From Tricholoma matsutake (taxonomy: Eukaryota > Basidiomycota > Agaricomycetes > Agaricales > Tricholomataceae): 64,000 bases of DNA. The notes under the pieces are model-generated. The model was not told where the DNA came from. It searched no databases and saw nothing but the letters and a program-made list of their open reading frames with translations. Shown here piece after piece: positions 7,193 to 52,318 of this stretch. Within the stretch, counting starts at the first letter, position 1; the number at the start of each line of letters is the position of its first letter. The position numbers and the translations under genes are program-made. Location: contig AP026550.1 of the NCBI GenBank assembly GCA_026075535.2, forward strand, positions 4,278,001 through 4,342,000. Direction: 5' to 3'.

Positions 7193-7728
7193 AACGAGAC
7201 GGTCAATTGGAATTATGGGGAAAGTTCAACACAGTTGAGACTCGGACAAAGCTTCAGGAGGCCTGCTCTGTCTGTAAGGCGATTGTTTGATCAATACTGC
7301 TCCCCGTGAGTTGTCTATGCCATCAGAAAACTTGGCCGTAACCCTCTTGAAGAGGGTTACGGCCACAAGTTGAGGGCTATCCCAACTCTGTCCATCATCT
7401 CGCAATATCCGAGTCGATTGATGGCTACATAGATCATGTCAATATGTCTGAATGCATGCAGCGTCATTGGGTGACTCGGACACGTGCATACATGCTTGTC
7501 AGATCATTTGTTCTTTAAGTTCACTATCAGTTGGCTATGAGTTTCCCTGCTGGCAATTGACTGATCCCTGTACCTTAGTACATGAGCAAGCATCAATGTA
7601 TAGTAGGGATCTGTTCAGCTGAGTTTAAATCTCATTGCTACGATCGAAAAGAGATGTGTCAGCCACTCAACTTCGTAAATTAAAATAACCCTTTGGGAAG
7701 CCATCACGTTACTAGTATATCTATGCAC
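7193..7728. other. Non-coding region at the edge of the transposon compartment
   Basis: No supported gene. It contains a 31-bp perfect hairpin (7334-7364) and ends at the target site of the copia element (TGCAC, 7724-7728). Everything to the right is mobile DNA or genes broken by it. Confidence 0.6.
7334..7364. repeat. Perfect 15-bp inverted repeat with 1-nt centre
   Basis: Arm GGCCGTAACCCTCTT (7334-7348), one G, then its exact reverse complement (7350-7364). Four further bases each side (CTTG/CAAG) nearly continue the pairing. Confidence 0.95.
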
Positions 7729-8081
7729 TATAGAAAGTCGATCCTAGAATATACGAGGTAAACTCTTGGTATAAGAGACTATATATCATGCTAATAGTGC
7801 CTAGAATATACAAGGTAAACTATAGGCATAGTAAGTAAGCAATCAGATGATAGCTGTAGTGTAAATACTCACCTCAGTCTTGGTATAAGAGACTGAGGTG
7901 TCTAATCTAATGTGTCCAATATATATACATATCTAGTGGGATAAAGGGGGTGTTCATAAAGGTATCCATCAGGCATACACATCAAAGGGATGCACTAAAT
8001 ATAGTATGTGTGCCATACGTGCCGAGAGATGGTTGCATCAAATGAAGATACGGTGTTGTATTCATGGTGTGATTCTCAACA
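7729..8081 (-). repeat. 3' LTR of the copia element
   Basis: 353 bp, matching 13678-14058. On the minus strand it starts TGTTGAG and ends CTATA, so the usual terminal CA is missing, but the target duplication fixes the edge. The polypurine tract AGTGAGGAGGAG lies directly beside it (plus-strand 8082-8093). Confidence 0.93.
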
Positions 8082-8123
8082 CTCCTCCTCACTGTGAGTT
8101 GCTCCTCCTCGCATGGAATTGTA

Positions 8124-8651
8124 TTATCGAAGACCCAGGGAATTTTGGAGGTATGTGAATTGTTTTACGTCTAGGGCTTTTGTGAACATGTCCACAACAT
8201 TTTCGTGAGTATTGACATAAGTCAGATGAAGTTTGTTTGACTGTACATGTTCACGGAGGAAATGATATTTGATGTTGACATGTTTAACATGAGAGTGAAG
8301 GAGAGGGTCCTCGGACAGGGTCTTAGTAGCAGAGTTGTCACAATAGATAGTTGTTGGGGATGACTGTTGGTGGTTAATAGAATCGAGTAGTGTGCATAGC
8401 CAAATGCACTCCTTGGCAGTTTCAAAAGCAGCAACATACTCTGCCTCACATGAAGATGTGGCAACAACCTTCTGTTTGCACGCCATCCAGGAAATTGCAC
8501 CTGAGCCAAGTGAGCATATGTATCCTCCAACACTACGATGTGTGTCGAGACAGTTGGCCCAATCAGAATCACTGAAGGCATGGAGGACGAGAGGACGATC
8601 CCCACTGAGGTAAAGTCTGAGATCCTTTGTCCCCTTTAAGTAGCATACCAA
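8124..8651 (-). pseudogene. Copia RNase H domain (C-terminal end of pol)
   Basis: About 175 codons ending at TAA 8124-8126. Conserved RNase H blocks are visible: FSDSDWANC, SWMACKQKVVATSSCEAEY, IYCDNSATK and the terminal VDMFTKAL block of copia pol. The acidic residues Asp, Glu and Asp appear kept. It is separated from the reverse transcriptase by a stop and frame change near 8651-8697, so it is a fragment of one polyprotein, not a separate gene. Confidence 0.9.
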
Positions 8652-8696
8652 TCTGATAGCAGCAGCCCAGTGCTTGAAGGAGTAGCAGTCAAGATA

Positions 8697-10500
8697 TTAT
8701 GATAACTGTTGGACTGCATAGGCAATGTTGGGGCACGTAGATATGGCCAAATACAGCAAGCAGCTGACAAGAGATCGATAGGGAATTTTGTTGAGTTGTA
8801 GTTGGTTGTCAGAGGATAGGGATTGCCTGTTAGTGCAATGAAGTTTGGATCCAGGCTTGAGGGGAGCTGATACCGGGTGAGCATCCTTTTGACTGAACTG
8901 TTCTATGATCTTGTCAATGAGTGCTGATTGCGAAAGGGCAACTGTATGAGTAGTTCTGTCCCAGGTAATAGCAATACCAATGATAAAGTGTGCTGTACCA
9001 AGTTTGGAAATTGTCCACAGTTCCCGCATTTGATTCTTGAAGTGTTCATTCTTGGCTGGTGAGTCTGCGATAGAAAGATAGTTGTTGACATGAACAGCTG
9101 TAATAATAATCCCAGAATCAGTCTTGCGGTAGTATATGCAGGATTCACATGATAGACGAGTAAAACCCCAGTCAATCATCTGAGCATTCAGCATCTGATT
9201 CCATATGCATCTGCTCTGCTTCATACTGTATAACCTGCATTGAAGCTTCCATACCCAGTCTGCTTTCCCAGGTTCTTCGAAACCAGCAGGTTGTTGCACA
9301 TATTGTACTTTGTCATCTGGTAGTAGCCCATAAAGAAAAGTGGTCTTCACATCAATCTGCTGTGCATCCCAACATAGGGAAGCAGCAAGATGTAAGAGAA
9401 TATGCCAAGATTCCATGCATGCAGTTGGTGAGGTTGTTTTAGTGTAGTCTTTGCCATAAATCTGTTCAAAACCCTTAAAGATGAGATGTACTTTCCATCG
9501 AACTGCTTTCCCAGTCTTGTCCTGCTTAATATGGAAAACAGGTTTCCCCTTTCGGATATGTGTTCCCTGAGGTACATCATTCCAAGGAATGAGTTTATAG
9601 ATGCCCATGTCTTTTAGTGACTTGAGTTCTTTGAGATACCCCTCTTTCCACTTCTCAGCATCAACTGTTCCTCTTGCTTCCTCCCATGTCTTTGGTTCAT
9701 CCTTGAATTGAAGGGATTCCAGATCAAAATCAGTCATCTCCAAGATCAGGGCCTGGAACTGATGTGCCTGATCACTGAGATCAAGGCTATTAAAAGATTG
9801 CTGAAGTTCTTTGATGATGTCACAATCATGATTGAGTGTTGTGTCCGGTGTCGGGTTATGATCGGGTGTGTGTGCAGCTACAGTGGCAGCCCTATGTTCC
9901 CGCCATGGATCCTTGACATGGACAGTGCTTTCGTGTGATTCACAAATAGCATTATCAGTTCTGGTGATGATTGGTTGGCCATTGGAGTTCTTTTCTGTGG
10001 GAATGGGTATACGAGTGGAGCGATGTGGTTGTGCGGGTGCTGGCTGCTCATCAGTATTAGAAGGTATTTCATCACACTGGTTAGGGGTGTGGAATGACTC
10101 ATTGTCATCACTATCATCCCCATGTACAGGTGTGAAAACCGTCTGTCCACCGCTGAGCTCTGCTGAGGGTGTTTCCATACCCAAGACGGATAGGGTAGGT
10201 GGTTAGTGACCATCATGGCTTTTGAGGAATTTAACATGGTAGGAGCTATGTACTTTCCCTGTGGCACGGTTATAACAACAGTAGGATTTTGACCTTGGGT
10301 CATAGCCAATTAACATGCATTTGATAGATCACTCAAATATTTTTGGGTTATCCTTCTTGGGAATGAAAATGAAGGCACGGCAACTGATTTCACGTAGATA
10401 AGAATAATTGGATTTACATCCATACCACAATTCCCATGGTGTACATCTCTGTAGTGATTGTGTAGTAGTCTTGGCATGTAGGTGTGATGCCATCAGATAG
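8697..10500 (-). pseudogene. Copia reverse transcriptase with destroyed active site
   Basis: From the Ser/Thr-rich linker after integrase into the reverse transcriptase: WKVHLIFKGFEQIYGKDY, WDAQQIDVKTTFLYG (the Asp block), YSMKQS and the downstream IPYRSLVSCLLYLA block. The catalytic YVDD motif reads HVNN near 9085-9096; both Asp codons became Asn, G-to-A on the coding strand. That alone abolishes polymerase activity. A further frame change lies near 10190-10210. Confidence 0.92.
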
Positions 10501-10529
10501 AACTCATCCCAAAGGTAGGTTGGTAGGCC

Positions 10530-11367
10530 TAGTGTTTAAAGGTCCAGTCCGGTCTGGTTTTTGACTTCCAAATGGGGCAACCAGCAACCATAACTGGTCT
10601 AGGACTGACCCAGATATTGGAGGACTGCAACCGGACCCTTTAGGACTGGTCCTAATTGGTCCATGGACCGAAAAAAGACTGGTTTGGACCGGTCTTTTGT
10701 TGTAAAATCTATTGTGCCAAATAACCCATATGTATCTCAACAAATATGACCATCACCTCATATATATTATATTATTGGATAGAGATTGTAATGCTCCATA
10801 GACAAATCCAACATTTAAGCAATTCTGTCAAGATTTGACTGAGATATGGCCAAAACCAAAAGAACATGCATTCAAGTTGCAGTTTGTAGTTTGTAATTTG
10901 TAGTTTGTAGTTGCACTCATTTGGGCTGTTATATAAATAAAATCTTATGGTACAGATGATTAGGTGTGTTGTTGCTACTTTTATGATGTCATATAGCTGT
11001 ACAAAAAAAATTATAACTCAGGTAATAAGCAATGCAATCAAAATTGTTCTGATACAACAAAATACTCATACAAAAATGTTTTTGGTCATATCTCAACCAA
11101 TTCTTGACCGTTTTTGATGATCCAGGGACCGAAAATGAAGTAAATATGTGTGGGAGTAAGGTCTAACATACGTTGGAACAAAAGACCAGTTGCAACCAGT
11201 TTTAACCAGTTTTTCATCAGTCCTACTATATTTTTCAAAATGAAAGACCAGCAACTGGACTGAAAAAGACTGGTCCATAAATAGACCACTGGTCCGGTCC
11301 TAATCAGTCCAGTTCAGTTCAGTTTTGGTCTTTTTTTTGGTCCTACAGACTGGACCTTTAAATACTA
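10530..11367. mobile_element. hAT-like non-autonomous element, family 1 (copy 1a)
   Basis: 838 bp bounded by terminal inverted repeats TAGTGTTTAAAGGTCCAGTC and its near complement, and by the exact 8-bp duplication GGTAGGCC (10522-10529 and 11368-11375). Removing the element and one duplication restores an open copia frame (YSGLPTYLWDEFYLMA). The ends are packed with ACTGGTC/GACCAGT-like motifs. No transposase is present. Confidence 0.93.
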
Positions 11368-11375
11368 GGTAGGCC

Positions 11376-12225
11376 TGAATATATTCGCATTGTGCAAGCC
11401 TTGGCCATGAGTGTACGGTGCATGTGTTCCACTCAGCCAATATGTGCCGATGTATATGGAGATGTAAATCGCTGTTCCGTGCCTCGGGATTTAAGCCAGG
11501 CCTCTATCTCATGTGATTTCAATTCTCCGTTGTCGGTGATATAAGTTCCTACCTTGAGTCCAGTTTCATTCTCCCGGGCGAGTTCCCAAGCTTTAAGTTC
11601 ATAGAAAGAGTCATCTTTATTATGTAGGGGTATCGACCAAGGAAAGGAAGTGTAGTCATCGACAATATCCATGATATAAGAGTTCCCAGTATGGGATTTG
11701 ACAGCGTGGGGACCTGATAAATCCACCCACACCTTCTCTAGCTTTCTCGTTGCCTTATGACCTATCCCCTCCTCACGCTTCTTAGGGACAGGTGATTTTG
11801 TCTGTTTCCCGAGTATGCATGAGTCACATTTAGGCAGTTTGGAGGTGAATGAGGCAGGCGCACCTGTGAGCATCCCCTTTTTTGCCATATCCCACAGGGA
11901 TTGGTAGTTTGCATGACCAAGACAGTAATGCCATGTCTCCAAGTTGGGGGATTTATGTACTGTAAGGGCATGATCCAGGGATGCGGAATGAAGGTTAAGC
12001 ATGTAAAGCTTTTTAGAGAGTCGGGATCCATGTGTGATGTGTGCACCCATGGATTTGTCAGTGATCCAGCATGTAGCATTGTCAAAATGAGTGATAGCAT
12101 TTGAGTCGTCCACCAGTGTGCCCACAGATATGAGTCGGACTGCCGCATTTGGGATATAGAGCACATTACATCATAAGATTGATGCGCCCTGGGCGACTCT
12201 TGATTCGACCCAAATGGCAATAATT
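11376..12225 (-). pseudogene. Copia integrase
   Basis: The zinc-binding HHCC region reads HYCLGHANY then CDSCILGK. The catalytic core follows with VWVDLSGPH (first Asp) and YITDNGEL (second Asp), then a region where the Glu block should lie (SPYTSAHIG). The tail continues beyond the hAT insertion into 10500. Stops and a frame break near 11433 and 12164 divide it. Confidence 0.88.
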
Positions 12226-12266
12226 AAAGAGCCTCCAACACCTTTAACTGAGCAGGGCTGCATAGG

Positions 12267-13485
12267 TCATAGAGTGAGGAAATCTGACTTGTACGGAGAA
12301 ATATGTACAGTTGCTCCTGTGTTGACAATGAATGGGTGATCATTGATGGAGAGTGGGGAATGATGAGTTTGATTGAGAGGTTCAACTGAAAATGCGTCTT
12401 TGGCCTGAGCTGAGGTGTTGTGAGCCCAGTCGATAGTCGTGGTCGCCTCCTCCTCAATAACAATCCAACCTTCATATTCCATTTCCTCGACAGCGGCAAT
12501 AGGGATGGGATCAGTAGCTATACCTGCAAATGCTGTGGGTTCGCCTCGTGAAGGTGACATGTCGGCGGAGTCAACCATGACTGTGAATGCTTTGCTGTTT
12601 ACATCCTTCATAGTAACAGGGACTTTTGAGGTAGAATAGGATGTAGTACCAGATTTCTTCCCTTTGTCTCGTGCTGCCCTTCGAGCAGCTAAGGACTCCT
12701 TGATGGTCTTGCCAGCCATGCCCCCCCCCAATTTAATGCAATACTCAATGGTATGGCCCACTTTTTTGCAGATAGAGTTGGTACAAGTCAGCGAGCTTGT
12801 AGATCTAGTTGGCTTGGCGCTGGCTGAGAGGGCAATGGAGGGTTTGGAATCGTTGTGTCGACCATTCTCGAGAAGTGACTGTTTGTTTTTAAGAAACAGG
12901 TGAATGTCTTTGGAGGTGTAAGGGGATGTAGTGGTTGAAGCGGCGATGTCATGAGATATGATAGACCATGTATGAGGGAAATGATCACCAAGAGAGTTTA
13001 AGAGGGCAATACAGCAGAGTAGGTCCGCCTTGATATCCCCCATAGAGAAAGCTCAGTCAATAAGGGCACATATCTTGTCAGCAGTCTCAGGGAGAGGGGC
13101 ATCAGTGGTGCACTTGGTGGAGAGTGCCTGCTGCAGTAGCTGAACTTGTCGAACTGGGCCCTCAGATTGGTGGTGCCTCCCAATTACTGGTGGTACTTTC
13201 TTTCATGTTAATGAATGGTCATTCTGAGGAAGCCATACTGGATGCCAGGAATGTGTATGCGAGGCGGGAGTTTGCTTTCCAGTTGGATAGGGCATGGGCC
13301 TCCGAGGAACATGGCTCAGTAATAGTGCCAGTGACATATTCATAAAGGCTGTTCAGTGAGAGAGCAATGGTTATCTCCTTGCACCATTCTTTGTAGTTGA
13401 ATTTCAGCTTATCCAGTTTCTTGCCAGAGTATTGGACAGAGAGTTTGATCAAAGAGATCAAAGGTGGGATAGATTCAGCAGTCAT
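12267..13485 (-). pseudogene. Copia gag and protease
   Basis: Start Met at 13485 (MTAESIPPLI). Gag reads KLKFNYKEWCKEITIALS, with a break near 13219, then resumes at 13043. A zinc knuckle CTNSICKKVGHTIEYC (CX4CX4HX4C) lies near 12735-12785. The retropepsin motif reads VNTGATVHIS where DSGAT is expected, so the catalytic Asp is Asn. This fits the G-to-A pattern of the reverse transcriptase. Confidence 0.87.
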
Positions 13486-13663
13486 GGTGTCGAAGAAAAA
13501 AGTTCAGACAAAGAGTTACAAGGGGGAAGGTAGTTGGATGGATTCTGACAGGGGCTGATTGCACAAAGGACAAGTTTTTGATCCAACATGGGATAGTGAT
13601 CTGGGCAGTGGTCAAGAGTCCGAGTGGCTAGGATACTTTCTTCCATTGTCTAGAGGCGATGAG

Positions 13664-13677
13664 AGTGGCCCATAACC
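13664..13677 (-). other. Primer binding site, half-tRNA-iMet type
   Basis: Directly beside the 5' LTR the minus strand reads GGTTATGGGCCACT, complementary to the anticodon arm (GGGCCCATAACC) of initiator tRNA-Met, not to a tRNA 3' end. Internal priming from a cut initiator tRNA is known for copia and Ty5. Confidence 0.75.
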
Positions 13678-14058
13678 TATAGAAAGTCAATCCTAGAATA
13701 TACAAGGTAAACTCAGTCTTGGTATAAGAGACTATATATCATGCTAATAGTACCTAGAATATACAAGGTAAACTATAGGCATAGTAAGTAAGCAATCAGA
13801 TGATAGCTGTAGTGTAAATACTCACCTCAGTCTTGGTATAAGAGACTGAGGTGTCTAATCTAATGTGTCCAATATATCTAGTGGGATAAAGGGGGTGTTC
13901 ATAAAGGTATCCATCAGGCATACACATCAAAGGGATGTGCTAAATATAGTATGTGTATGCATCAAGGGGTGTGCTAAATATAGTATGCATGCCATACATG
14001 CTGAGATGGTCACATCAAATGAAGATATGGTATTGTACTCACAGTGTGATTCTCAACA
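13678..14058 (-). repeat. 5' LTR of the copia element
   Basis: 381 bp, matching 7729-8081 but with a few small insertions (one repeat of the short CATCAAGGGGTGTGCTAAATA-like segment). Flanked by TGCAC at 14059-14063. Confidence 0.93.
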
Positions 14059-14567: not shown

Positions 14568-15264
14568 TGTTAAGAACTGATCCAAAAGGGCTCGTCGGAA
14601 TCCGGTTGGACCCGGCGGGTGTCTGAGAGCAGAAGATTGTCAGGTCATAGCAGATTATGCGGATGGGTAACGAAAAGGACTTGGCTTCAGCTTGTAAGAA
14701 GCTGCACCCTTCACCTCGTCTGGTGTCCTAATTTTGGGTAGAGGTTTTAGAGATAGGAGCGGGAGAGTGTGGGTAAATGCGGGAAGGAGTACGGAGGGAC
14801 TTAGGTTAAGTTCAGATGAGACTAGAACTTCAGAGGGGAACTAGAGGTTGAGTTGAATGGAGTTCAGACTCTTAGAGGTCAGGAGTTGGAGTAGAAGGAG
14901 GTTTTAGATTGACAGGGTAAAGTTGAGTCTATGTCGATATACGAACTGAGGAATACAAAGCGAAACTAACTAAGCTTAAATACTAGAGTCCGGAACAAGA
15001 GCAGAACGGAAACGGAAACTGCGGCAGTGTCTCAACTGCATAGATAAATTGCCTAGCGGAGGCTGCACAGGAATCCGTAGTCAAATTTGCAAAACTAGAC
15101 GGCAGCCTTGGAAGGCAGCTGTGGTTGCTGTACATGGCGGCCTGGTGCACAGCAGTGTGGACAGTGCAAGGGGGCCGGAACGAAGGCGGTAGGAGTTGAG
15201 TTAGGAAAAGTGGAAAAGATCGGAAGGTTGTGGGTTCTGAGCGGGTGAGGAATGGATTGTGACA
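14568..15264 (-). repeat. 3' LTR of chromovirus A
   Basis: 697 bp, exactly the length of its partner. The polypurine tract AAGGGGGAAATAC (minus strand) abuts it at 15265-15277. The plus-strand antisense gene begins 132 bp inside, so its promoter probably lies in or next to this LTR. Confidence 0.95.
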
Positions 15265-15396
15265 GTATTTCCCCCTTAGTGCCGAGCCTATGAGGCACGT
15301 GAAGGTTCAAGTCCAAATGAGGAAGTTGGTTGACTCCCAAATGCAGTAATTGGTTGAAAAATTTTGTTGTTTTCCTTCTTCCATCACCTATACAAA

Positions 15397-16411
15397 ATGT
15401 CCCCCCCAGCAGGCTCTGCTCAACTGAAATTGGCTGCAATGAAGGCTCAGTACAAACAGAGGGAGCGGGAGATGAAAGAACAGATGGAGCGGGAGGTGAG
15501 AGAATTGGAGGAGGCGGCAAGGGAGGAGGAACGTTGGGCGCAGGAGGCACAGAAGGCATCAGAGGAGGCTGCAAAGGCAGAGGAGGCGCGCCAGGCAGCG
15601 GCACAGAAAAAAGAGGCTTCGGCCGCAAAACATGCGGAGAAGAAGCGGGCGGCTGCGGCTGCGGGTTTGGAGGATGAGGCCGAGGGGAGCAAGTCCCCAA
15701 AGAAGAAGAAGATTGCCACGTCAAGGGTGCGGGTGGGGTCAGAAGAATCGGCAAGTCTGGTGTGGGTGCAGGCTGCCTTGCCCTGCAAAAGGTGCGTAGT
15801 TGGTTTTCTTTCAATGTTTTCGGACTGACAAGTGGCTTAGGTGCCAATATCAAAAAATTTCATGCTTCAAGATGGGTGCGAAGGGACGCGTGTGCGATAA
15901 CTGCACGCACATTAAGCACAAGTGTGAGGAGGTCATGTGGGAGGGGCAGGAGGCCCCAACAGTAAGAAAAGCGAGGTCCGGAGCGGGAACAGCGGGCCCG
16001 CCGGAAAACAGCGGAGAAGTGGTGGAGCTGCTACGGCAGCTGGTGAAGGTGGTGAGGAAAGGGTTTGGGGAGGTGGCGACAGCCGTGAGGGAGTCGATGG
16101 AGGAGATCCGGGATGCAATGGACCCGGAGTGGGAGGCAGATGAAAGTATCGAAGGGGAGAGTGACGAGGACGAGGAGGAAGTGGAGCAGGCAGTACGAGA
16201 GTCCCGATGGGAGAGGCACGGGATCCACCAGTCTGGAGACGACTGGGCGGGTTTCCAAAGATATTTGGAAAAAAGGCGGGCAGACAATGTGGAGGAGGGC
16301 AAGGGTGAGGAAGAGGAGGGTGAAGGCGGGGAAGGTGGAGAAGCGGAGGAAGGTGGTGAAGTCAGAGGAGAGGATGACGAAGATGGAGAGGGAGAAGCAG
16401 AGGTAGTGTAG
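15397..16411 (+). CDS. Antisense retrotransposon gene: spliced Zn2Cys6-like protein (element A)
   Basis: Exon 1 is 15397-15791, the intron 15792-15840 (GTGCGT to GGCTTAG), exon 2 is 15841-16411 (TAG): 322 codons with stop. Residues about 8-90 are a highly charged, Ala/Glu/Lys-rich predicted coiled coil. SPKKKK near residue 98 is a candidate nuclear signal. Splicing joins CKR to CQYQK, giving cysteines at 130, 133, 140, 150, 153 and 160: CX2CX6CX9CX2CX6C, which fits the fungal Zn(II)2Cys6 consensus. The C-terminal third is strongly acidic. A polyadenylation signal AATAAA follows at 16445-16450. The gene is convergent with pol (stop at 16497). A DNA-binding regulator of the element or its host is inferred, not shown. 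The frame is fully intact although pol is not. Confidence 0.8.
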
Positions 16412-16496
16412 GGATCCAGTTGGATCCAAAAATTTTTTTTTTTCAATAAAGTTTGTTCTGAGTTTGGACTGAGTGAATAAGTAACGTGAATCATCT

Positions 16497-19400
16497 TTAA
16501 GCGGGTAACGGTCCGATTTTCTGTGGGTAGCGGGTGTGAAAATCTGCAAGGAGTTCTTGGGCATGGTCAAGTTCTGTAACAGGTAGCCAGGAAGTCTCTT
16601 CGTCGGTTCCCTGGTAACCTTCCCATTGGATGAGGTAGAGAATCTTGCAGTGACGTCGGTTGTCAACTTTGGAGTCGAGGACTTCGGCGATCTCATATTC
16701 AAGCTTGTCATTGATGGTGATCAGAGGAGGTGGAGGTTGTACTTGATTTGGAATTGTGTTCGGGGAGTGTATCTCTAGTTGAGAGACATGGAAAACAGGG
16801 TGAATAGCCTGCATGTGATCCGGGAGCCACAGGGTGACTGAGTGAGTTCCCGGGCGGGCGATGATTTCAAAAGGACCATGGTTCTTTTCGGAGAGCTCTT
16901 GGAGGGACGGGTGGTGCAGATATTTTCTGCAGTGACATAAGCGAAATCACCAATGTTGAAGTCAGGTGTGGGTGCCTGATGTTTATCCGCAGGACCTTGA
17001 TAACGTTCTTGAGCGGCCGCAAGTTGTTTCCGAAGTTCCTGGTGAAGGTCATCTAAATCGACGATGAATTCGCGGGCGCGCTGTGAAGCTAAGTCGTGCT
17101 CTGGAAAGATGGAAATGTTCGGGTGGTAACCTTTATTGGCAAAGAAAGGTGATACGCCTGTAGAGGCAGAAGGAGCATTGTTGTAGGCAAATTCGCCCAA
17201 GGGCAAGAGGTGAGACCAGTCGTCCTGCTGATAGTTGCAGAAGATCCGGAGGTACTGTTCCAAGGTCTGGTTAAGTCGTTCTGTCTGACCATCACCTTGC
17301 GGATGATAACCGGAAGTGAAGTGGATCCACATGTCGAGTGCTTTTCCAAGAGAGTGGAAAAAATGAGAGACAAACTCAGATCCCCAGTCGCAAGTGACGT
17401 GCGATGGAACACCATGTTTGGAGAAGACGTGGAGGACAAACAGGTTGGCTAGTTCTTGGGCTGTGATTTCATTGACAGTTGGAATGAAGATGCCCTGTTT
17501 GGTGAGGCAGTCAACAATGACTAGGATAGCAGTGTGACCAGCGGAGTCAGGTAGTTGTTCAATGAAATCCATGGAGATGGAATTCCAAGGTCGTTCCGGA
17601 ACCAGAAGTTGCTTTAGGAACCCGTAGGGCCTGTGTCGAGGCAATTTGGATCGTTTGCAAGTCATACAGGATTTGCAGAATTCCTGGACGAAGGTGCAGA
17701 GGTTTGGCCAGACGTATTCCTGGCGGACAAGCTGCTGGGTTTTGTTTTGTCCGAAGTGGCCAGAGAGGATATGATCATGTTTGTATTGGAGGACTTTGAG
17801 GTGGAGATCCACAACATCCGGAACATAAATCCGGTCGAAGTGGCGGAGAAGTCCTGCCTCATCTATGGTCCAGTTGGGGTCAACAGGTGTCGGGAGATGA
17901 ACGGAAGATATAGGGTCAAGGGGAAGAGAGGTGCGGATGTCATTGTGGAGTTTCTCAACGTCCATGATTACTGCTTGTCGAAGGATGGGTGTGGTGAGAT
18001 AAGTGGCGCAGAGGGAAGAGGAGAGTTGTTCCTGTGTGAATACAGGTTGGAAGTTGGTTGGGTTTACAGAGGCAAAGTCGCTATTTCCCCCTTTGCGGTA
18101 GATGTCCCAACGTCTAGTGAGTGCGTCTGGCTTGGCCCCTAGTTTCCCGGGGCAGAAGCGGATGACGAGATTGAACTGGGAAAGGTACTCAGACCAACAG
18201 GCCTGGTGGTGGGTGAGCAACTTGGTAGTGCTGAAGTACTCAAGATTTTTGTGGTCCGTGACCACATCAACTGGGTTTGCAGAACCCTTGAAGTACTGCC
18301 TCCAGTGTTTGAAGGCTTCGAAAATGGCCAAGAGTTCCTTGTCATGTGTGTCGTAATTTAGTTCAGCGGGATTGAAGGAGCGGGAATGAAAAGCGACCGG
18401 ATGGATTTCTCCATCTGCAGTGTAAACCGAAAGGATAGCAGCTAGGGCATAGTCAGAAGTGTCCGTTTCGAGTACCATTTGTGAGTCGGGTACCCATTGG
18501 GTTAAGACGGGTGTGTGAGTGAATTCTTGTTTGAGCCTTTCAAAGGCGTCACAGCACTTCTTGTTGAAGTCCCAAGGTGCAGATTTCCGTGTCAAGCGGG
18601 TAAGTGGGATGACAATGTCTGAATAACCATTAATGAAATGGCGGTAAAAATTGCAGAAGCCTAAGAAGGATTGGATGTCCTTAACTTTCCTAGGCTCAGG
18701 CCAGTCAAGCATGGTTTTGACTTTATCCTCAGACATCCGAAGTCCATCTGGTGAAAGGATGAAACCTAAATATTCAACGGTGTCTTTGTGGAACTCACAT
18801 TTCTGTGGGGAGGCGTAAAGTCCATTTTTCTGGAGACGGCGGAGGACTTCTTTAATGTGAGTCCCATGCTGGGACTTGTCATCTGAATAGATCAGGATGT
18901 CGTCGAGGTACACGATGACACAAACATCCAGCATGTCACTGAAGATGTCGTTCATAAAACGCTGGAATGCTGCAGGTGCATTAGTGAGTCCAAAGGGAAC
19001 CACCAACCACTCGAAGGATCCGTAGCGGGTGTGGAAAGTAGTTTTCCATTTGTCACTGTCTGTGATGCAGACTAGGTGATAAGCATGCCGCAAGTCTATC
19101 TTGGTGAACAAGCGGGCTTTTTGGGGAGAGTCAAGGAGGTCGGAAATAAGAGGAAGGGGATAGCGGTCTTTCTTCATAAGACGATTGAGTCCTCGGTAGT
19201 CGACACAAAGTCGGAGGCTACCGTCCTTCTTTTTGACAAAAAGTATAGGAGCTCCATGCGGAGACTTAGAAGGATGGATGAAGCCTGAGCGGACGTTTTC
19301 ATCAATGAAGACTCGTAGGGCTTCTAATTCGGAGGGAGAGAGGGAGTACATGCGACCCAGAGGAGGAGGAGCATTATCCTCCATCTCTATCTTGAGGTCG

Positions 19401-20125
19401 TAAGGACGATGTGGAGGAAGGGTGTCTGCCTTATTCTTATTAAAGACATCGGCGAATTCATGATACTCGGTGGGAATGTCAGATAAATCTGGCGGGATTG
19501 AGGATTGGGTCGAGCGGGCAGATAACCCTTCTGGAGCGAAGGTCATCTGGAAGGCTACTGCCCCAGGGAGTTTGCTAGCACGTGCATAAGCGGCAGCATT
19601 GATGAAAGAGATGTCGGGAGGTGTAAACTTAGGAGGAATGGGGGGTTCGGAAAATGCGGAGGATTCAAGGATTTCTACCAGAAGGTTCAGGGACAAAGGA
19701 GATGTCTGGGGTGCTGAACCTCTATGATCAGCAGAGCGGAAAGTGATTTGGCTTGAAGACCAGTCAATCAACGGATTGTATTGCTTCAGCCAGTTATGAC
19801 CAAGTACTGCGGAACAGGAAGAGTCTAGCGAGGTTACATAAAATGACAGATTGAATATTTCACTGGTAGGAAAGGTGACTGGAAGTTGGGCGACTTGAGT
19901 TATGGTGGAGTTGCAAGATCCATCAAAGAGTTGCAAACCGATCGGGTTAATGGATTCCATGCTGAGTTGGTTATTCAACACGAAAGAGGAGTCAAAAAAG
20001 CAGTGGGATGAACCGGAATCAATGAGGGTTCGGACAGGGGCGGGAAGGTCAGGAATAGTTAAGAGGATGATTAGGGAGTCAGGGTCGGAAAGAGCGGACG
20101 CGTTGAGATGGACGTAGGCAGCCAA
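16497..20125 (-). pseudogene. Pol of chromovirus A: PR-RT-RNase H-IN-chromodomain, one frameshift
   Basis: Open from about 20180 to 16775 in one frame, then a 1-bp deletion near 16910 (compare element B) moves the last 105 residues to another frame ending at TAA 16497. Protease DSGSSHCF; reverse transcriptase with intact YLDD (VIVYLDDILIYS); RNase H (LETDTSDYALA); integrase zinc region (HDHILSGHFG to CKSCMTCK) and catalytic blocks (MDFIEQLP, CDWGSEF, DGQTERLNQTLE); chromodomain YEIAEVLDSKVD to WEGYQG and SWLP. The frame lies -1 relative to gag, whose TAG overlaps an A-rich run (GGAAAAATAG). Apart from the frameshift the catalytic residues look intact, so this copy died recently. Confidence 0.92.
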
Positions 20126-20181
20126 GTGGGTAAGGTCAACGCAACCCCCAGCCCCAATGGCTGTATCCTGAGGGTTGTGGA

Positions 20182-21561
20182 CTATTTTTCCGAGTCCGCA
20201 GAATCGGGAATTACAGTGGATGCACGGGCTTTTGCGGCTTTAGACTTCAGGCAGTTTCCTGCTACGTGCCCTTCTTCACCGCAGTAGAGGCAAAGTCTTT
20301 CCCGCATGTGATGTTCTCGTTCATCCGCAGTAAGTTTGCCGTTCTTTCCCAACTTGTCAGAGATGGACGCCTTGGAAGTGTTCTTTGTCGTGGAGGGCTG
20401 CTGGTTGGAGGAGTTTCCCTGAGGGGAGCTCAACGAGGATTGATTGGTGGACTGGGAGGAACCTTTGGGGTTGTCCTTCTTGACAGGGTTAGAAGAGTTC
20501 CAGGAATTCTTAGTTTTGAACTGGGTTTCATCTTCCTGCATCCAGTAGATATTGTCACAGTCCTGCGCTTTCAAGCGCAGTCCTGCAAGGGTGTCGGGTT
20601 TACCACCCCAAAGGACTTCTATACAAAGTCAGAGTGGAAGACCATGGAAATAGCGGTCACAGAGGGCTGCCTCATTCCAGTTGACCCTAGAAGCTAATTC
20701 CCAACAGTCAATGTTATACTTTGTGATGCGACCACTTTTCTTCATTGCTAAATCGGAAAGAGCTTTTTCCGCATCCCCGAGCGGGTCGTGCAGGCTGAAG
20801 TTACTCTCTAGTTCGGCGAGAAAAGCCTCATAATCCCACATCCAGTGTGCGGAATCGGTCGGGTCGTTAAGACCGGGCTCAAACCAGCTGAGAGCTGATC
20901 CCTTGAGATAAGAAAGGATAAATATGATCTTTTTCTCATCAGAAGAAAATACGTGTGGATGGTTGCGGAAATGAAGGTTACACGAGACTAGGAAGTCTCT
21001 AAGTTTCTTTGGGTTGGAGCCATTGAAGGTGTCGGGGTCGCAAACTTTGATTTTCTTGGTCTTGGGTGCGTTATTTTGTCGGAGGGTGCGGATACTCTCT
21101 GAGAGGTTGTAAAGAACATCTATGAACCTATCCCCTGGATCAGGGTTTCCCCCCATGGGAGGTTGATCATCAGGATCATTGGGATCGGGGTCACCCCCAG
21201 GGCCGTCCGGACCACTAGGGTTGTCAGGTCCACCGGGAGGTCCGTCCTCTAGACCACGATCTTCCAACCCATAGGGTTCAGGCTGGTTGATGCCCCCTAT
21301 GTACTCAAGGGGAGTCGTGGGTCAGGGTTCTTCCGGATTCACGGGAGATTGTTGAGCTTGAGTAGACATGAGGTTTGCACTGATTGATGGGGCTCCAAAA
21401 CCGATTTGTCGGAAAATGTTGGAAGGTCTGGAAGTTACTCCGAATGTTGAGGTGGGTTGTGGGCTAGGAAGTGTGGATCGCTGAATTGCAGAGATCCCTG
21501 GAATGGTACCAGCGCGCTGAGAGTTTCTGGTTGTGCGCTGGCGAGTTTCAGTTGGGGTCAT
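20182..21561 (-). pseudogene. Gag of chromovirus A
   Basis: Start MTPTETRQRTTRN at 21561; one frame to TAG at 20182 but with TGA at 21322-21324 and 20629-20631. Contains a Pro/Gly/Asp-rich segment, the capsid-like stretch FIDVLYNLSESIRTL to FILSYLKGSALSWFEPGL and a zinc knuckle CLYCGEEGHVAGNC (CX2CX4HX4C). The second stop replaces the CGG present in element B; the first TGA is shared with B at the same codon. Confidence 0.9.
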
Positions 21562-21598
21562 AGGAGAAGAGACGAGTGAAGTGTGAGTTCGTATATAC

Positions 21599-22295
21599 TG
21601 TTAAGAACTGATCCGAAAGGGCTCGTTGGAATCCGGTCGGACCTGGCGGGTGTCTGAGAGCGGAAGATTGTCGGGTCGTAGCGGATTATGCGGATGGGTA
21701 ACAAAAAGGACTTGGCTTCAGCTTGTCAGAAGCTGCGCCCTTCACCTCATCTGGTGTCCTAATTTTGGGTAGAGGTTTTAGAGATAGGAGTGGGAGAGTG
21801 CGGGTAAATGCGGGAAGGAGTACGGAGGGACTTAGGTTAAGTTCAGATGAGACTAGAACTTCAGAGGGGAACTAGAGGTTGAGTTGAATGGAGTTCAGAC
21901 TCTTAGAGGTCAGGAGTTGGAGTAGAAGGAGGTTTTAGATTGACAGGGTAAAGTTGAGTCTATGTCGATATACGAACTGAGGAATACAAAGCGAAACTAA
22001 CTAAGCTTAAATACTAGAGTCCGGAACAAGAGCGGAATGGAAACGGAAACTGCAGCAGTGTCTCAACTGTGTAGATAAATTGCCTAACGGAGGCCGCACA
22101 GGAATCCATAGTCAAATTTGCAAAACTAGACGGCAGCCTTGGAAGGCAGCTGTGGTTGCTGTACACGGTGGCCTGGTGCACAGCAGTGTGGGCAGTGCAA
22201 GGGGGCCGGAACGAAGGCGGTAGGAGTTGAGTTAGGAAAAGCGGAAAAGATCAGAAGGTTGCGGGTTCCGAGCAGGCAAGGAACGGATTGTGACA
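21599..22295 (-). repeat. 5' LTR of chromovirus A
   Basis: 697 bp. In the first 165 bases, 11 of 12 differences from the partner LTR are CG versus TG or CA; one is an A/C transversion. Confidence 0.95.
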
Positions 22296-28925: not shown

Positions 28926-29525
28926 TGTTAAGGGCGAAGCCTCAACCACTCGATCTAGTTGATGTCGTTCAATGAGGTGCTTCCTCAACGAGTTGTTCGG
29001 CACTAGTCTTACTCAGAGCATCTGACATAAGATAGGTAGTGCACTCTAGCAGGGCTTCTGCGTAGAGTTGTTCAGGTTCATGCACTAAGGGGCTTCCTTA
29101 GTGGTTTTGAGTAAGTTCATGAGTTAAGGCTGTAGAATGCCTAGATCTAAACTAAGGACATCCCTACTACAAGTTGCAGTACTTATACTACAAGGGAGGT
29201 CCTTATCGTCCAATCAGAAAGATAGATGCGTATCAAGTAAGAATAGAAACAATAAGCCTTATGCCTTGCATGAGGCGTCCGATGTCAAGGATCCGATGTC
29301 AAGGACATGCTGCGGCGCAGCATGTCGATTGTGAGAGTCCGACGTCACAGACCTCATGTCAAGGGGCTGTTGTATCACAGCATGTGTGGGAATGGGTTCA
29401 GGTGCATGGAGTCACCATGCATCATGTGTGTGTCTGGTGTCAAGGACATGCTCTAAGTGTCTGGAGGGAATCATTGGATACATCGGGTCAGTTGGGTCTC
29501 ATGAGTTACAAGGAAAATTGTAACA
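28926..29525 (-). repeat. 3' LTR of chromovirus G
   Basis: 600 bp. Contains short palindromes, for example ACATGCTGC-GGC-GCAGCATGT near 29308. Shorter than the partner (679 bp) through indels in the palindromic part. Confidence 0.93.
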
Positions 29526-29786
29526 TTACCCCCTCGTTATGGTCGAAAGTTCCACACTTCGACCTAAATCTTTGTTCCTCCTCCGGGGTCAAATTGGTTG
29601 TGGTGTGGGTAGGTCATGGCGTTGGCATCTGGGTGTGGGATGGAGAGACCGTTCATGTCCAAGCTTGGACCGTGATCGGGTTCTTTTTGTTTTATACTGC
29701 CCCTAGCAATGGTGTCAAGGAGTCAGTGATGTCATCAGAAGGGGGGGGGGGTCTGTAGGGTCTGTGCAGTATCAAGGGCAATCACC

Positions 29787-29976
29787 ATAGTTTTACATCT
29801 TCGTGGATGCTTGGTAGTTTAACATCTCTGCAGATGGTCAGTAGTTTAACGTCTTTGCAGACGATCAGTAGTTTAACGTCTTTGCGGACAATCGATAGTT
29901 TAACGTCTTTGCAGACAATCGATAGTTTAACGTCTTTGCGGACGTTCGGTAGTTTTAACATCTTTGCAGACGATCT
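29787..29976. repeat. 27-bp minisatellite, about seven units
   Basis: Unit TAGTTTAACGTCTTTGCAGA plus CGATCAG, seven imperfect copies of 27-28 bp. Each holds a small inverted repeat (GTCT-TTGC-AGAC). Changes between units are mostly CG to CA/TG. Lies in the accessory region of G and is absent from F. Confidence 0.92.
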
Positions 29977-30062
29977 ATTTGCACCTAGTTGTGCTCAGTG
30001 GTTTGGGGTGTTGATGTGTGGGGGTGTCGGCTGGAACGCAGCAATGTCCCCAGTTCTCTGTG

Positions 30063-30590
30063 TCATCCAAATAAGAGCTGCCTTGCCAGCTCGAATCCAC
30101 TTTCTTCATCGTAGTGGGTGTTCCACTGAAGGTCTTTCCACAGTGATGGGTTAATCCCCGCCAGTGGTCTTCTGCCCAGGGTTAGGCCATCGCGGTCAAG
30201 GTAGAATTCTTTGGGGAAATAGTCGCCGTCGTCTAACTCTCCTTCGAAGCACCACTCTTCAAATTGTGCTCTTACCCAGGTCAAATCCATCTTTGTGCTC
30301 CTCCGCATATAGAGGCAGCATCTTGGGCAGGTCAAGGATACTCTTTTTATCCAGTTGTCTCTGTTTGTCCAGAATGTGATTCCGTGCAGGCATTCCCAAG
30401 AGGGTCGCCCCGGCAGTCTGTTTGTTCTTGGTGACTGGTCAATGACTTGTCATCCAGTTGCCATGTTCTTTTCATGTTTATCAATGGGGGGGTGAGGGCA
30501 AACGTGAAGGGCGTCAATGTTCAGTGGGTCAATCGTCATTTGGGGGGTATCAGGAGTGTTGTTTGGCTGGGGTTTGGTTCAGATAGTGGG
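30063..30590 (-). pseudogene. Accessory ORF of chromovirus G, not homologous to that of F after its start
   Basis: Begins near 30522 with MTIDPLNIDALHV, resembling the start of the F accessory ORF (NRLNADALHV), then diverges into LTCPRCCLYM, EEWCFEGELDDGDYFPKEF and LAGINPSLWKDLQW, ending at 30063. One CXXCC-type Cys pair is present, but no zinc knuckle pair like that in F. At least one stop or frame change lies near 30450-30340. Function unknown. Confidence 0.5.
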
Positions 30591-30608
30591 GGGTTTCTTG
30601 GGTTCTCA

Positions 30609-33600
30609 TCAGAGGTGGTACCTCTTCTTATATGACGTCAGGATATTGGGGGCATTCTTCAAGTTTGATTTGGGTTCCCATGTGTTCTCAGATGTCGGGT
30701 AGTCAACCCATTTCACGAGGTAACGGTGTGTCTTGCTGTGCTTCTTGTGTGCGATGATCGCTTCCACTTTGTATTCATTTTCTCCTTCCACAAGGTCGGG
30801 TGGTGGAGTCAGGAAGTTTTGCCCATGAGTGTCATTCTCATGGTATCACGTGAGTAAAGCCGCATGGAATACCGGGTGGATCTTCCATCACGAAGGGCCC
30901 TTCTCGTTTTGGCACCAATTTTCTCATTGGGTAGCCAATCTTCAGGTTCTTGGAGTCAAGCCATACTTGTTCTCCAACCTTGAATGGTTCGTATCGCCCT
31001 TTCATTCGGGCGGCCATAGCCTGTCTGGCTAGTTCATGTGTGGCAAGAGCTTCCCTTCTCGCAGAGAGAAGTTCTTGGATTCTCTGTTCAGCGGCCGGCA
31101 CATTCGTCTTTTCATAGGGGGTGGGGATAGTGCGTGGTTGATATCCCATCATCAAGTAAAACGGCGAGTGTTTTACTGCGGAGTGCGTCTTCTGGTTGTG
31201 CACAAATTCTGCCATTGGGAGATAACGCTCCCAATCTTTGGGTTTGTTCAAACAGAACATGTGGAGGTAAACCTCTAGCTCTTGGTTACTTGCTCCATCT
31301 CTCCATTGGTCTGGGGGTGATAGGCGGTGCTCATGGATAGCTTGATTCCAAGCAGTCGCCCGAGTTCTCGGAAGAGTTTGGACACAAATCAAGGGTCTCT
31401 GTCTGAGATGATTCTTCCGGGGAGTCCAAATCTTGTGTACACATGGCGCAGGTAGAGGTCTGCAGTGCCAAGTGCATTGATTGTCTTTGCACAAGGGATA
31501 AAAATTACCCTCTTTGTAAGACCATGGTCTACCATGACCATGATTGAGTCAAATCCGTTTATTATGGGCAGGTCCATAATAAAGTCTGTCATTACCAGCT
31601 CAAATGGTCTGCTGGCATCGGATGATATCGGTGTCAGGGGTGGGGTCGTCGGGTGGGTGTTGATCTTCATTTGCTGGCACTTTGTGCAGCCTTCCACATA
31701 TTTCTTTATGAAGTTGGCCATTCCTGGCCACCAGTAGTCTTGTCGGATCAGTTCAATCGTTTGCCATTGTCCAGGGTGCCCTGTCGTGATGCTGTCATGG
31801 TATTTCTGTATGATTGTTCGGCGGAGGGTTTCATCCTGTGGCACATAGCACCTGTCTTTGAAAAAGAGCAGGCCATCTTTGAATTTCCAGTCCTCCAATG
31901 CAGACTTGATTGGGGGAGTTCCGTTGTTCTTCAGGGCTCATAAAGCTTCATTTATGAGGTCATCCTTCATTATTGCTGAGACCAGGGCTCCCTGGAGTTC
32001 AGCATCAATCGTTTTCACGAATAGTTCATCGGTGAGGATGGTCTTGTCCTTGTTATCAGTGTCTTCTTCGGCTACATGATCTGCTCTTCTTGATAGGGTG
32101 TCAGATTGTACCATCTGTGATCTGGGTACGTGTTGTAGCTTCAGGTCAAATTGTGACAGGTAGATGCTCCATCTAGCCTGTCATCGGTTCAGTTTCTGTG
32201 CCTGATGGAAATACATCAGGTTCTTGTGATTGGACAGTACCATCACAGGGAACGGCGTCCCCTGTAGGTAGTGTCTCCATGTTTCTAGCGCTTGGATCAC
32301 TCCCAGTAGTTCCCTGTCATATATCTCATAATTTCTTTCCACTTCATTGAAAGAATGCAAGATATAGCCGCATGGGTGCCAGTCTCCATTGGCATCCTGT
32401 TGTCTGAGTACTGCGCCTGTCGCAAATTTCGAGGCATCAGATTCCACCACAAGTGGTTTCGTTGCATCTGGCATCAGCAGTACTGGGGCTTCATTGAATT
32501 TCCTTTTCAGCACATCGAACGACTGCTGGCAGCCATTCGTCCATTCGAATTTCTGGTTCTTCTTCGTCAAATCATTCAGTGGTCTGGCCAGATCCGCAAA
32601 GTGTCCGATGAATCTTCAATAGAAGTTCCCAAATCCTAGGAAGGATCTTACATCCTTCACTGTCCTTGGCGTGGGCCAGTCCTTGATCCCAGCCAGCTTT
32701 GTGTTGTCCATTGCAAGTTCGTTGGGCCTGATGATCATGCCCAAGAAGTCAACTTCTTGCACATTGAACTTGCACTTCTCTATCTTCAGGTAGAGATCAC
32801 ATTGTCGTAGTCATTCAAGGACCCTTTCGGTCCTTATCCAGTGTTCTTCTTCTGTTTTCGAGAAGATCAGGATGTCATCCATATAGATGATGAGCCATCC
32901 TTCATCTAGCATGTCTCGGAAGAGATCGTTCATCATTGCCTGGAATGTTGCCGGTGAGTTGCACAGCCCAAAGAACATCACCATTGGCTCGAATAGCCCT
33001 TGGTTAGTCTTGAATGCTGCCTTCCACTCATCTCCTTTCTTTATTTGTACGTTATGATATCCCCATTGAATATCAAGTTTTGTGAAAAATCTCGCTCCCT
33101 TCAGCTTGTCCAAGAGGTCTCCAATCAGTGGTAGGGGGTAGTTGTTCCAGATCGTTCCTTCATTCAGATAGCGATAGTCTTGGCAAGTCAGAGTCCTTCT
33201 TTGACACGAAGAAGAACGGGGATGCCATGGGTGATTTTGACAGTTGGATGTATCCTTTCTCCAGGTTTTCATCTAGAAACTCATTGAGTTTCTCTTGTTC
33301 TTTCGGTGTCAATGGGTAGACTTTGCAATCCTTTGGTACAAAGCCTTCCTTCAGATCAATCGTGTGATCCCACAGTCTTGATTCTGGGAATCATTCAGAT
33401 GCTGCCTTCTCAAATACCTGTCTGTATTTCTGGTATTCTGGTGGCAGTAAGTCATCCAGGGTCTGTTTGCTGGCCTCCCTCCCCTCATCTTGTTCATGCG
33501 TGAGTCGCTGGGAAATGGATGTCTTTGCTCTGATCCATGCACTTTTTGAGAATATATATTGTGGGGAGTCCTTGGCTTTTGTAATCCTGGAGATCGTGTT

Positions 33601-36600: not shown

Positions 36601-36627
36601 TGACTGGCATCATATCAGGTTGCTGTT
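30609..36627 (-). pseudogene. Pol of chromovirus G, frameshifted and split by a hAT element
   Basis: Minus-strand order. Protease 36613-36182 (LLDSGAGGVFIDS). Linker of repeated AVAKTKERLSEEKERNLA units (36160-35740), cut by the hAT at 34032-35728. Reverse transcriptase 33272-32811 with intact YMDD ([13 protein letters not shown]). RNase H 32570-32181 ([14 protein letters not shown]). Integrase 31898-30838: [35 protein letters not shown]; the Glu block is broken by a frameshift ([12 protein letters not shown] in place of [12 protein letters not shown]). Chromodomain 30791-30609 (HKKHSKTHRYLVKWVDYP). At least three frame changes. Confidence 0.88.
34032..35728. mobile_element. hAT-like family 1 element (copy 1c), enlarged to 1.7 kb
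   Basis: Ends TAGTGTTTTAAGGTCCAGTT and GACTGGACCTTGAAACACTA; exact 8-bp duplication ATTGTGTT (34024-34031, 35729-35736). Removal restores the G linker sequence seen uninterrupted in F (near 39860-39900). The middle 1.2 kb is unlike the other copies and holds four hairpin units of CTGCGAGCAGAGGCTCGCAG type. No transposase recognised. Confidence 0.92.
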
Positions 36628-37159
36628 CTAAAAACCCGATTCCTCCATAAGGTTGAGGGCTCGTTCCTTTTCTTCTTTGTCTAGTTCATCCAGCATTGTG
36701 CAGATCTTCTGGTAGGTGTCCACCCCAGTCTTCTTCTGGGTGAAGCGGTTTTGGTAGGGAGGGGGCGCTGACCCCGTCTGAGTGGGGTTCTTTCCATCCC
36801 TGTGGTCGGACAATCGGTGTCCCGGCTGGTGGCAGATGAAACATAATCCCTTTTGGAGGTGTTCCACGCATTCTTGGTTTGTCAGTCAGTTGATGTCAAG
36901 AGAGGGCTGTCCTTTCTTTGTCGTTTTGTTTGTCTTCTGGTTCTGCCTGGTCTTTCCCAGGATTGCCATGGCCCGTTTCCATTGGCCTTTGTATTTCAAA
37001 GCTGCCTTTATCCAGCCTTTGAGAGTGTTGGGTACCATCTCCATTGTGTGTACCCTCTTCAGTAATTTGGGGTGCAGTCCATCCATGAAGTACTCAATCA
37101 TGGCTGCATCTTCTGTGATTCCCGTCCTGTCTTTCAGGATGCAGAAGTTTGCCACATAT
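36628..37159 (-). pseudogene. Gag of chromovirus G, 3' part (5' part lies at 45335-45650)
   Basis: Reads LKDRTGITEDAAMIEYFMDGLHP, then a zinc knuckle CFICHQPGHRLSDH, where the last Cys of CCHC is replaced, and ends at TAG 36628-36630 after MEESGF. Element F interrupts it after NLEEYV; the 5' part (GGTAAAWAQAFVNQHQ) is at 45521-45335. The start region is deleted relative to F. The slippery heptamer GGGTTTT is present (minus strand, 36637-36631). Confidence 0.88.
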
Positions 37160-37769
37160 TGTTACAATTTTCCTTGTAACTCATGGAACCTGATGCACCC
37201 AACGATCCCCTCCAGACAGGAGGCACCCCTTGATTCATGCCTAGGGCATGTCCTTGACATCAGACACACACACGACGCATGCCGACTGCATGCATTTGAT
37301 CCCCTTCCCATGGAAGGCACCCTTGACGCATGGTGACTCCATGCACCCAAACCCACTCCCACACATGCTGTGATACGACGGCCCCCTGACATGAGGTCCA
37401 TGATGTTGGACGCCTCATGCAAGGCATGAGGCCTATTGTTTCTATTCTTACTTGATATGCATCTATCTTTCCGATTGGATGATAAGGACCTCCCTCGTAG
37501 TATAAGTACTGCAACTCGTAGTAGGGATGTCCTTAGTTTAGATCTAGGCAATTAACAGCCTTAACTTGCAACTCGCAAACTTACTCAAAACCACTAAGGA
37601 AGCCCCTTAGTGCATGAACCTGAACGACTCTATGCAGAAGCCCTGCTAGAGTGCACTACTTATCTTACGTTGGATGCTCCGAGTAAGACTAGTGCTGAAT
37701 GACTCGTTGAGGAAGCAACTCATCGAACGACATCGACTAGATCGAGTGGTTGAGGCTTCACCCTTAACA
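37160..37769 (+). repeat. 5' LTR of chromovirus F
   Basis: 610 bp, homologous to the LTRs of G in inverted orientation. The internal region begins TAAGATCTAAACTATCTGC; I could not assign a priming tRNA. Confidence 0.94.
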
Positions 37770-38085
37770 TAAGATCTAAACTATCTGCTAGCCCACCTAC
37801 CTAGGTGTAGGCAATACATCTCGATACACACCACAGCGACCCGGGTCTAGACAAACCCCAGACCAACCACCAAGAGAAGCGGAACCACAGCCAGGTTCAT
37901 CTTGGTACCGATACAATGGAAGACTAGTCCGTTACTCGACCCCAGCACAGCGTTGGTTCTACAGATCAACCGACAGACAATGAGGAGATTTCCTCACCGA
38001 CGAAGACTTTGAACAACTGCACACACCCCCACCTGAAACATCCACCCACTTCTTAACAGATGAAACTGACAACCTCTATAACGAG

Positions 38086-43367: not shown

Positions 43368-43413
43368 CGAGAACCCAAGACCCCCCTTCCTTTCTACTAC
43401 AACACTCCCCAAT

Positions 43414-44139: not shown

Positions 44140-44157
44140 AAGGCAGAGCTCAAGACG

Positions 44158-45650: not shown

Positions 45651-45847
45651 ATCTGTAGAACCAACGCTGTGCTGGGGTCAAGTAATGGACTAGTCTTCCA
45701 TTGTATCGGTACCAAGATGAACCTGGCTGTGGTTCCGCTTCTCTTGGTGGTTGGTCTGGGGTTTGTCTAGACCCAGGTCGCTGTGGTGTGTTTCGAGACG
45801 TATTGCCTACACCTAGGTAGGTGGGCTAGCAGATAGTTTAGATCTTA

Positions 45848-52181: not shown

Positions 52182-52318
52182 GTATTTCCCCCTTAGTGCC
52201 GAGCCTACAAGGCACGTGAGGGTTTGAGTCTGAATGAGGAAGTTGGTTGAATTTTCTGAATGCGGTAATTGGTTGAAAAAATTTTCATGTTCTTTCCTTC
52301 CCCCATCAACTATCAATT

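Follow-up and report, generated by a model that had tools for sequence, protein, structure and literature searches.

A chromovirus with an antisense gene flanked by pol and the 3′ LTR

The window analyzed here is a 64,000-nucleotide stretch of the Tricholoma matsutake genome, and it contains a Ty3/gypsy element that we call element A (Table 1). Its Pfam matches follow the gypsy pol order RVP, RT, RNase H, H2C2, rve, SH3_Tf2-1 and Chromo, with the rve match below its cut-off (27.7 versus 32.6 bits), and the chromodomain after the integrase marks the element as a chromovirus. The main pol frame overlaps the frame with the SH3-like domain and chromodomain, so that this copy has a broken pol. A predicted gene lies antisense to gag-pol in the interval that separates pol from the 3′ LTR, and its two exons join into a frame of 321 residues. 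The first-pass annotation had proposed an intact frame of this length and a 49-bp intron, and both lie exactly where it placed them; the PKKKK patch, acidic tail and separate AATAAA that it listed are all present as well. It had also described the intron as joining two halves of a six-cysteine motif, which was right only in part: the intron does interrupt the motif, at codon 132 (R), but it leaves the first cysteine in exon 1 and the other five in exon 2.

Table 1. Features of elements A and B in the window.
Feature	Position	Strand	Remarks
Element A, Ty3/gypsy chromovirus	14568-22295	-	span 7.7 kb
3′ LTR of element A	14568-15264	-	95.3% identical to 21599-22295 over 697 bp
Leader, LTR to ATG	15265-15396	+	polypurine-like tract (minus strand), inverted repeat; presumed antisense promoter and 5′ UTR
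Exon 1 of antisense gene	15397-15791	+	starts with ATG; Glu/Lys/Ala-rich, possible coiled coil (residues 1-95), PKKKK basic patch, first Cys
Intron	15792-15840	+	predicted spliceosomal intron, 49 bp, GTGCGT...TTAG
Exon 2 of antisense gene	15841-16411	+	Cys 2-6, WEGQEAP motif, helix (residues ~189-225, low-confidence model), acidic tail; ends with stop codon
AATAAA	16445-16450	+	poly(A)-like signal of antisense gene
pol 3′ end, own frame	16497-16946	-	SH3-like Tf2-1 domain and chromodomain; Pfam PF24626 5.1e-12, PF00385 2.5e-07
pol main frame	16775-20239	-	protease, RT, RNase H, integrase; Pfam and ORF list
gag-like frame	20632-21321	-	Pfam DUF4939 7e-10; Ty3_capsid 1.5e-05, below its cut-off
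5′ LTR of element A	21599-22295	-	697-bp partner of 14568-15264
Element B	51474-59260		same family and orientation as element A; LTRs 51474-52181 and 58553-59260, 95.3% identical over 708 bp
Antisense gene copy of element B	52323-53350	+	decayed; 67% identical in exon 2

The element B copy of the antisense gene has one in-frame TGA in exon 2, and its first stop comes after 20 codons. Two further repeats lie in the window. A copia-like element on the minus strand (7728-13956), assigned to copia from the look of its frames, has terminal repeats of ~285 bp that are 94% identical, and nested repeats at 28926-46534 hold another RT/integrase element (40671-43019, plus strand). Among frames of at least 180 aa, we saw no relative of the antisense gene 3′ of pol in this last element.

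The antisense gene is a regular part of many copies of the family

We searched the T. matsutake genome (161,040,721 bases in 13 contigs) for further copies. A DNA search, in which the best 40 of 615 candidates were scored, returned copies 92-95% identical, the window copy aside, while a protein search with exon 2 reached down to 61% identity among the best 150 of 814 candidates. A 20-base marker from exon 2 (at most 2 mismatches) occurs 500 times in the genome, against 5 for a reversed control, and a 24-base chromodomain marker (at most 3 mismatches) occurs 445 times, against 0 for its control. On contig 1, among the matches listed, an exon 2 marker lies on the other strand within 0.75 kb of 12 of 14 chromodomain markers; the other two have none among the exact matches listed.

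For closer comparison we assembled 70 copies: the window copy, 29 close copies located by the DNA search (L003-L031) and 40 diverged copies (L032-L071), the latter picked by hand, with and without stops, from exon 2 protein matches below the close group. All 70 show the same order of LTR, exon 1, exon 2 and antisense pol end, with only a partial LTR match in some. The copies were found through the antisense gene itself, so that the result here is the constancy of the LTR and pol flanks and not the presence of the gene. The antisense gene is a regular part of many copies of this chromovirus family.

Upstream of the gene, the leader carries an inverted repeat, GTGCC-N10-GGCAC (15279-15298), which is followed by GTG and adjoins the polypurine-like tract. 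If C/T and G/A changes and spacings of 8-12 are allowed, 65 of the 70 copies keep the repeat. The last 45 nt before the ATG are 62% pyrimidine on average, and leader divergence is 0.11, compared with 0.18-0.25 at codon position 3 in the gene (CpG columns masked). Downstream, the poly(A)-like hexamer reads AATAAA in 44 of 70 copies and AATGAA in 20.

Splice signals are conserved while intron length shifts

The predicted intron begins with GT in 68 of 70 copies and ends with AG in 68, with both in 66; 66 copies also have a CTRAY-like branch site close to the AG. The intron length is 49 bp in 38 copies, 50 in 25, 48 in 3, 51 in 3 and 28 in 1, and the groups differ: 49 bp prevails among the close copies (28 of 30) and 50 bp among the diverged ones (25 of 40). 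In 64 of 70 copies this length is not a multiple of 3. Since it shifts from 49 to 50 while the frame is kept, exon 2 is in frame only if the intron is removed, which indicates that the antisense frame requires splicing. Between 10 close and 40 diverged copies, the intron interior has diverged by 0.35, compared with 0.19-0.21 in exon 1 and the first part of exon 2. We infer that the intron has persisted because the element's genomic RNA corresponds to the opposite strand, which lacks these splice signals.

The antisense frame is under purifying selection

We obtained dN/dS by simple counting over pairs of copies that are not independent, and we give the ratios without attached probabilities. 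For the whole frame, dN/dS is 0.41 within the close group (30 copies, 435 pairs), 0.24 within the diverged group (40 copies, 780 pairs) and 0.20 across the two groups (1200 pairs). At the end of pol (its last 149 codons) the same three comparisons give 0.43, 0.23 and 0.21, indicating that purifying selection on the antisense gene matches that on the pol end in strength. A ratio near 1 across copies had been set beforehand as grounds for rejecting the gene, and both diverged comparisons lie far below it. In these two comparisons, four of five control frames per exon gave 0.75-1.21 and the wrong frames of the pol end 0.77-1.24; the fifth control, the mirror frame on the minus strand, which shares third positions with the antisense frame, gave 0.31-0.43. 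The contrast is weaker among close copies (0.32-0.45 for parts of the right frame, 0.54-0.98 for wrong frames), as expected if close copies mostly decay.

Recent change in the close copies is almost all CpG decay, with transitions at 22.7% of CpG cells and at 0.38% of the remaining C/G cells (15397-16408). We therefore compared 15 close with 40 diverged copies after masking every column that is CpG in any copy. In exon 1, divergence at codon position 3 was 0.185 versus 0.086 and 0.054 at positions 1 and 2; the first 435 bp of exon 2 gave 0.246 versus 0.114 and 0.084, and the pol end 0.155 versus 0.057 and 0.044. In both of these exon regions, position 3 is thus 2.1-3.4 times more divergent than the other two positions. 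Over the last 132 bp of exon 2, which encode the acidic end, positions 2 and 3 diverge alike (0.222 and 0.231). Because the excess at position 3 persists with CpG masked, CpG decay is ruled out as the source of the dN/dS signal.

We separated the antisense frame from its mirror by counting changes per opportunity between 10 close and 40 diverged copies. Changes silent only in the antisense (plus) frame occur at 0.33 in exon 1 and 0.28 in exon 2, whereas those silent only in the mirror (minus) frame occur at 0.03 and 0.05; per opportunity, changes that are silent on the plus strand and replace a residue on the minus strand thus outnumber the opposite class by a factor of 5-11. These counts indicate that the antisense frame, not the mirror frame, is the one that codes, and they rule out sense-strand coding in the mirror frame. 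Of the 70 copies, 22 have no stop in the mirror frame of exon 1 and none has a stop-free mirror frame in exon 2, as against 43 and 48 for the plus frame.

In 29 of 70 copies, 19 of them close, the frame runs from the ATG for 300 codons or more without interruption. The antisense gene is stop-free in register in 33 copies and the shorter pol end in 36. Stops recur at codons 79, 112 and 251, as expected of CpG decay, because CGA is among the other common codons at these positions.

The gene goes beyond chance, because it recurs in many copies with the same neighbors and its codons are under purifying selection. At the level of sequence, this is a real, selected antisense gene in a T. matsutake chromovirus family. 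Conserved splice signals in a retrotransposon frame under protein-level selection also amount to evidence from nature for transcription and splicing of the opposite strand.

The encoded protein carries a conserved six-cysteine core

The protein has one match to CX2CX6CX9CX2CX6C, at residues 130-160. Each cysteine is kept in 68-70 of 70 copies, and all six in 63. The core consensus, LPCKRCxYQKxxCFKMGxxGxxCxNCxxxKHKC, contains two halves that both read CX2CX3KX2C, with lysine 137 kept in 66 of 70 copies and lysine 157 in all 70. The N-terminal stretch before the core is rich in E, K and A, and its coiled coil is judged from composition only. GSKSPKKKK precedes the core, and its PKKKK (residues 101-105) is among the best conserved segments of the protein. 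Beyond the core, WEGQEAP is nearly invariant across copies, and the tail (residues 282-321) has a net charge of -18.

The first-pass annotation had read the core as a Zn(II)2Cys6-like cluster, and the cysteine pattern agrees: its spacing of 2-6-9-2-6 falls within the family rule quoted there, CX2CX6CX5-12CX2CX6-8C, and the C2-C3 lysine and the repeated half-motif also fit. Family and structure profiles do not pick it up. The window protein has no hit to Pfam Zn_clus (PF00172) at E<=1 and does not reach the family cut-off; among nine family members only one matched, at E=6.1, and the 62 matches to PF00172 at E<=1 in the whole genome do not include the window copy. A PDB profile search gave 13 solved-structure hits at E<=10, all at chance level and none of them a Zn2Cys6 chain, with CCHC nucleocapsid proteins among them at E ~3. 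Aligned with hhalign to five yeast Zn2Cys6 domains (GAL4, PPR1, PUT3, HAP1 and LEU3), the core placed all six cysteines in register, with a probability of 43% and an E-value of 2.5e-4 for a single comparison.

A single-sequence AlphaFold model of exon 2, which lacks the first cysteine and was built without the acidic end, has a mean pLDDT of 58, with block means of 42-48 over model residues 1-50, where cysteines 2-6 lie; this low-confidence model places a helix at residues ~189-225, and we draw no evidence for the cluster from it. Outside the genome, searches of the protein collection gave no homologue of the whole protein at E<=0.001, nor of the nine-member alignment at E<=0.01, each among the nearly 8000 scored candidates with most shared words, and none of residues 108-285 at E<=1. 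A viral contig scan returned none either. These results say little about other mushrooms.

The spacing and pseudo-repeat suggest a binuclear zinc cluster, and the protein probably works like a Zn2Cys6 factor. We do not file it as one, because the Pfam model misses it and the structure search returned no Zn2Cys6 chain. Zn2Cys6 factors usually carry the cluster before the coiled coil, whereas here the presumed coiled coil precedes the cluster.

A candidate regulator of the chromovirus family

Our preferred reading, held with moderate confidence, is that the antisense protein may be a nuclear DNA-binding regulator of its own chromovirus family, acting in trans through its coiled coil, zinc cluster and acidic tail. 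RNA polymerase II would transcribe the gene from the 3′ LTR or the leader towards pol, and the spliceosome would remove the 49-bp intron. The protein would enter the nucleus through PKKKK and pair through its coiled coil, and its six-cysteine, probably two-zinc cluster would bind element DNA, for which the inverted repeat beside the polypurine-like tract is a candidate site. The acidic tail would then alter transcription or silencing of the family in trans. We lean towards activation or anti-silencing on account of the acidic tail, within a regulatory role read only from the anatomy of the protein.

The most serious alternative, though an unlikely one, is that a real antisense-encoded protein works outside transcription control, for instance as an accessory protein that binds element RNA or cDNA or tethers the integration complex to chromatin. 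A cluster rich in cysteine and lysine with flanking basic residues, together with a possible coiled coil and an acidic tail, would suit RNA or chromatin binding. In its favor also count the lack of a usable HMM score to the DNA-binding Zn_clus family and a PDB profile search whose hits, all at chance level, include CCHC nucleocapsid proteins. The cysteine spacing, however, is that of binuclear clusters and not of CCHC knuckles, and the well-conserved basic patch is of nuclear type.

Less likely again is an anti-silencing factor that frees family copies from CpG methylation. VANC is an anti-silencing protein of plant transposons, and the role would be comparable. The excess of CpG transitions in the 30 close copies suggests that copies are methylated, and the ~500 exon 2 marker matches also speak for this reading; decay after silencing does not, however, show that a protein opposes it.

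Retroelements can capture genes, and the antisense gene could be a host gene carried passively, a transduced cargo with no role for the element. We consider this very unlikely, since selection has matched that on the pol end in strength while the family diversified, distances between pairs of copies correlate for gene and pol end (r 0.53-0.58), and the exon 2 marker is so numerous. Slightly more improbable still is a function carried chiefly by the antisense RNA, which might for instance feed small RNAs directed at the element. Such a role has been proposed for noncoding spliced antisense transcripts of Ty3 elements in Blumeria hordei, where spliced antisense transcripts of transposable elements have been sequenced (PMC10648671). 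An RNA role would leave the selection on the protein frame unexplained, though it may exist in addition. An accidental open frame, from base composition or minus-strand coding, is hardly credible: the G-rich, E/G-rich sequence leaves several frames open in the window copy and the mirror frame has a low dN/dS, but that frame shares third positions with the antisense frame, the strand test and stop counts contradict it, and the splice signals are conserved.

More tentatively than the regulatory reading itself, we propose that fungal chromoviruses may have independently evolved a dedicated antisense gene, as HTLV-type retroviruses and plant Retand elements possess, with an intron able to persist only through its place on the non-genomic strand. 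The gene would encode a divergent factor with a binuclear zinc cluster, acting in trans on family LTRs and perhaps on nearby host genes. If so, an element-encoded regulator over hundreds of copies would create a network of binding sites within a single fungal genome, and the origin and targets of retroelement antisense genes would become testable in fungi as in plants and retroviruses.

Comparison with known systems

T. matsutake is also the host of marY1, a gypsy-type LTR element with hundreds of copies; as described, marY1 is ~6 kb long with 426-bp LTRs and is set apart by these descriptions from element A, with its 7.7 kb and 697-bp LTRs (PMC10211490, PMC10627285). The first-pass annotation knew of no fungal precedent for the antisense gene. 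We likewise found no coding fungal antisense gene of this kind in the open-access papers searched. The arrangement is nevertheless not without precedent, because antisense ORFs are known in plant Ty3/gypsy elements and spliced noncoding antisense transcripts in a fungus (PMC11963269, PMC10648671).

The plant Retand, Grande and RIRE2 elements carry antisense ORFs, including TRP28, between pol and the 3′ LTR, for which DNA binding (TRP28) or nuclear location (Grande) has been suggested (PMC11963269). The matsutake gene shares their position in the element, their strand opposite to gag-pol and their wide occurrence within a lineage. It differs in that the plant elements are not chromoviruses and their TRP28 domain (PF04195) is not found in the matsutake protein, being absent from the 18 families listed for nine members at E<=10. 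The matsutake gene also bears an intron, a word that the main text of PMC11963269 does not use.

In the powdery mildew B. hordei, Ty3 and copia elements give rise to spliced antisense lncRNAs that the authors call noncoding (PMC10648671). The likeness lies in fungal LTR elements and antisense splicing, the latter predicted from sequence in matsutake, and these transcripts make antisense splicing in fungal elements less surprising and transcription of the matsutake gene more plausible. As far as that article describes them, the B. hordei transcripts encode no meaningful peptides, whereas the matsutake frame is under protein-level selection. The new part is this selected protein frame.

With Zn(II)2Cys6 factors (PF00172; GAL4, PPR1, PUT3, HAP1 and LEU3) the protein shares the spacing class and the C2-C3 lysine; it differs in a cluster below Pfam detection that lies mid-protein, after the presumed coiled coil, and in being encoded by a retrotransposon. 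A looser likeness is to HBZ of HTLV-1, an exogenous retrovirus, in which a spliced antisense gene encodes a bZIP protein that acts as a nuclear regulator. HBZ is also named in PMC11963269. If our preferred reading is right, HBZ and the matsutake protein would both be products of antisense regulator genes of retroelements, a parallel that implies no relation in sequence.
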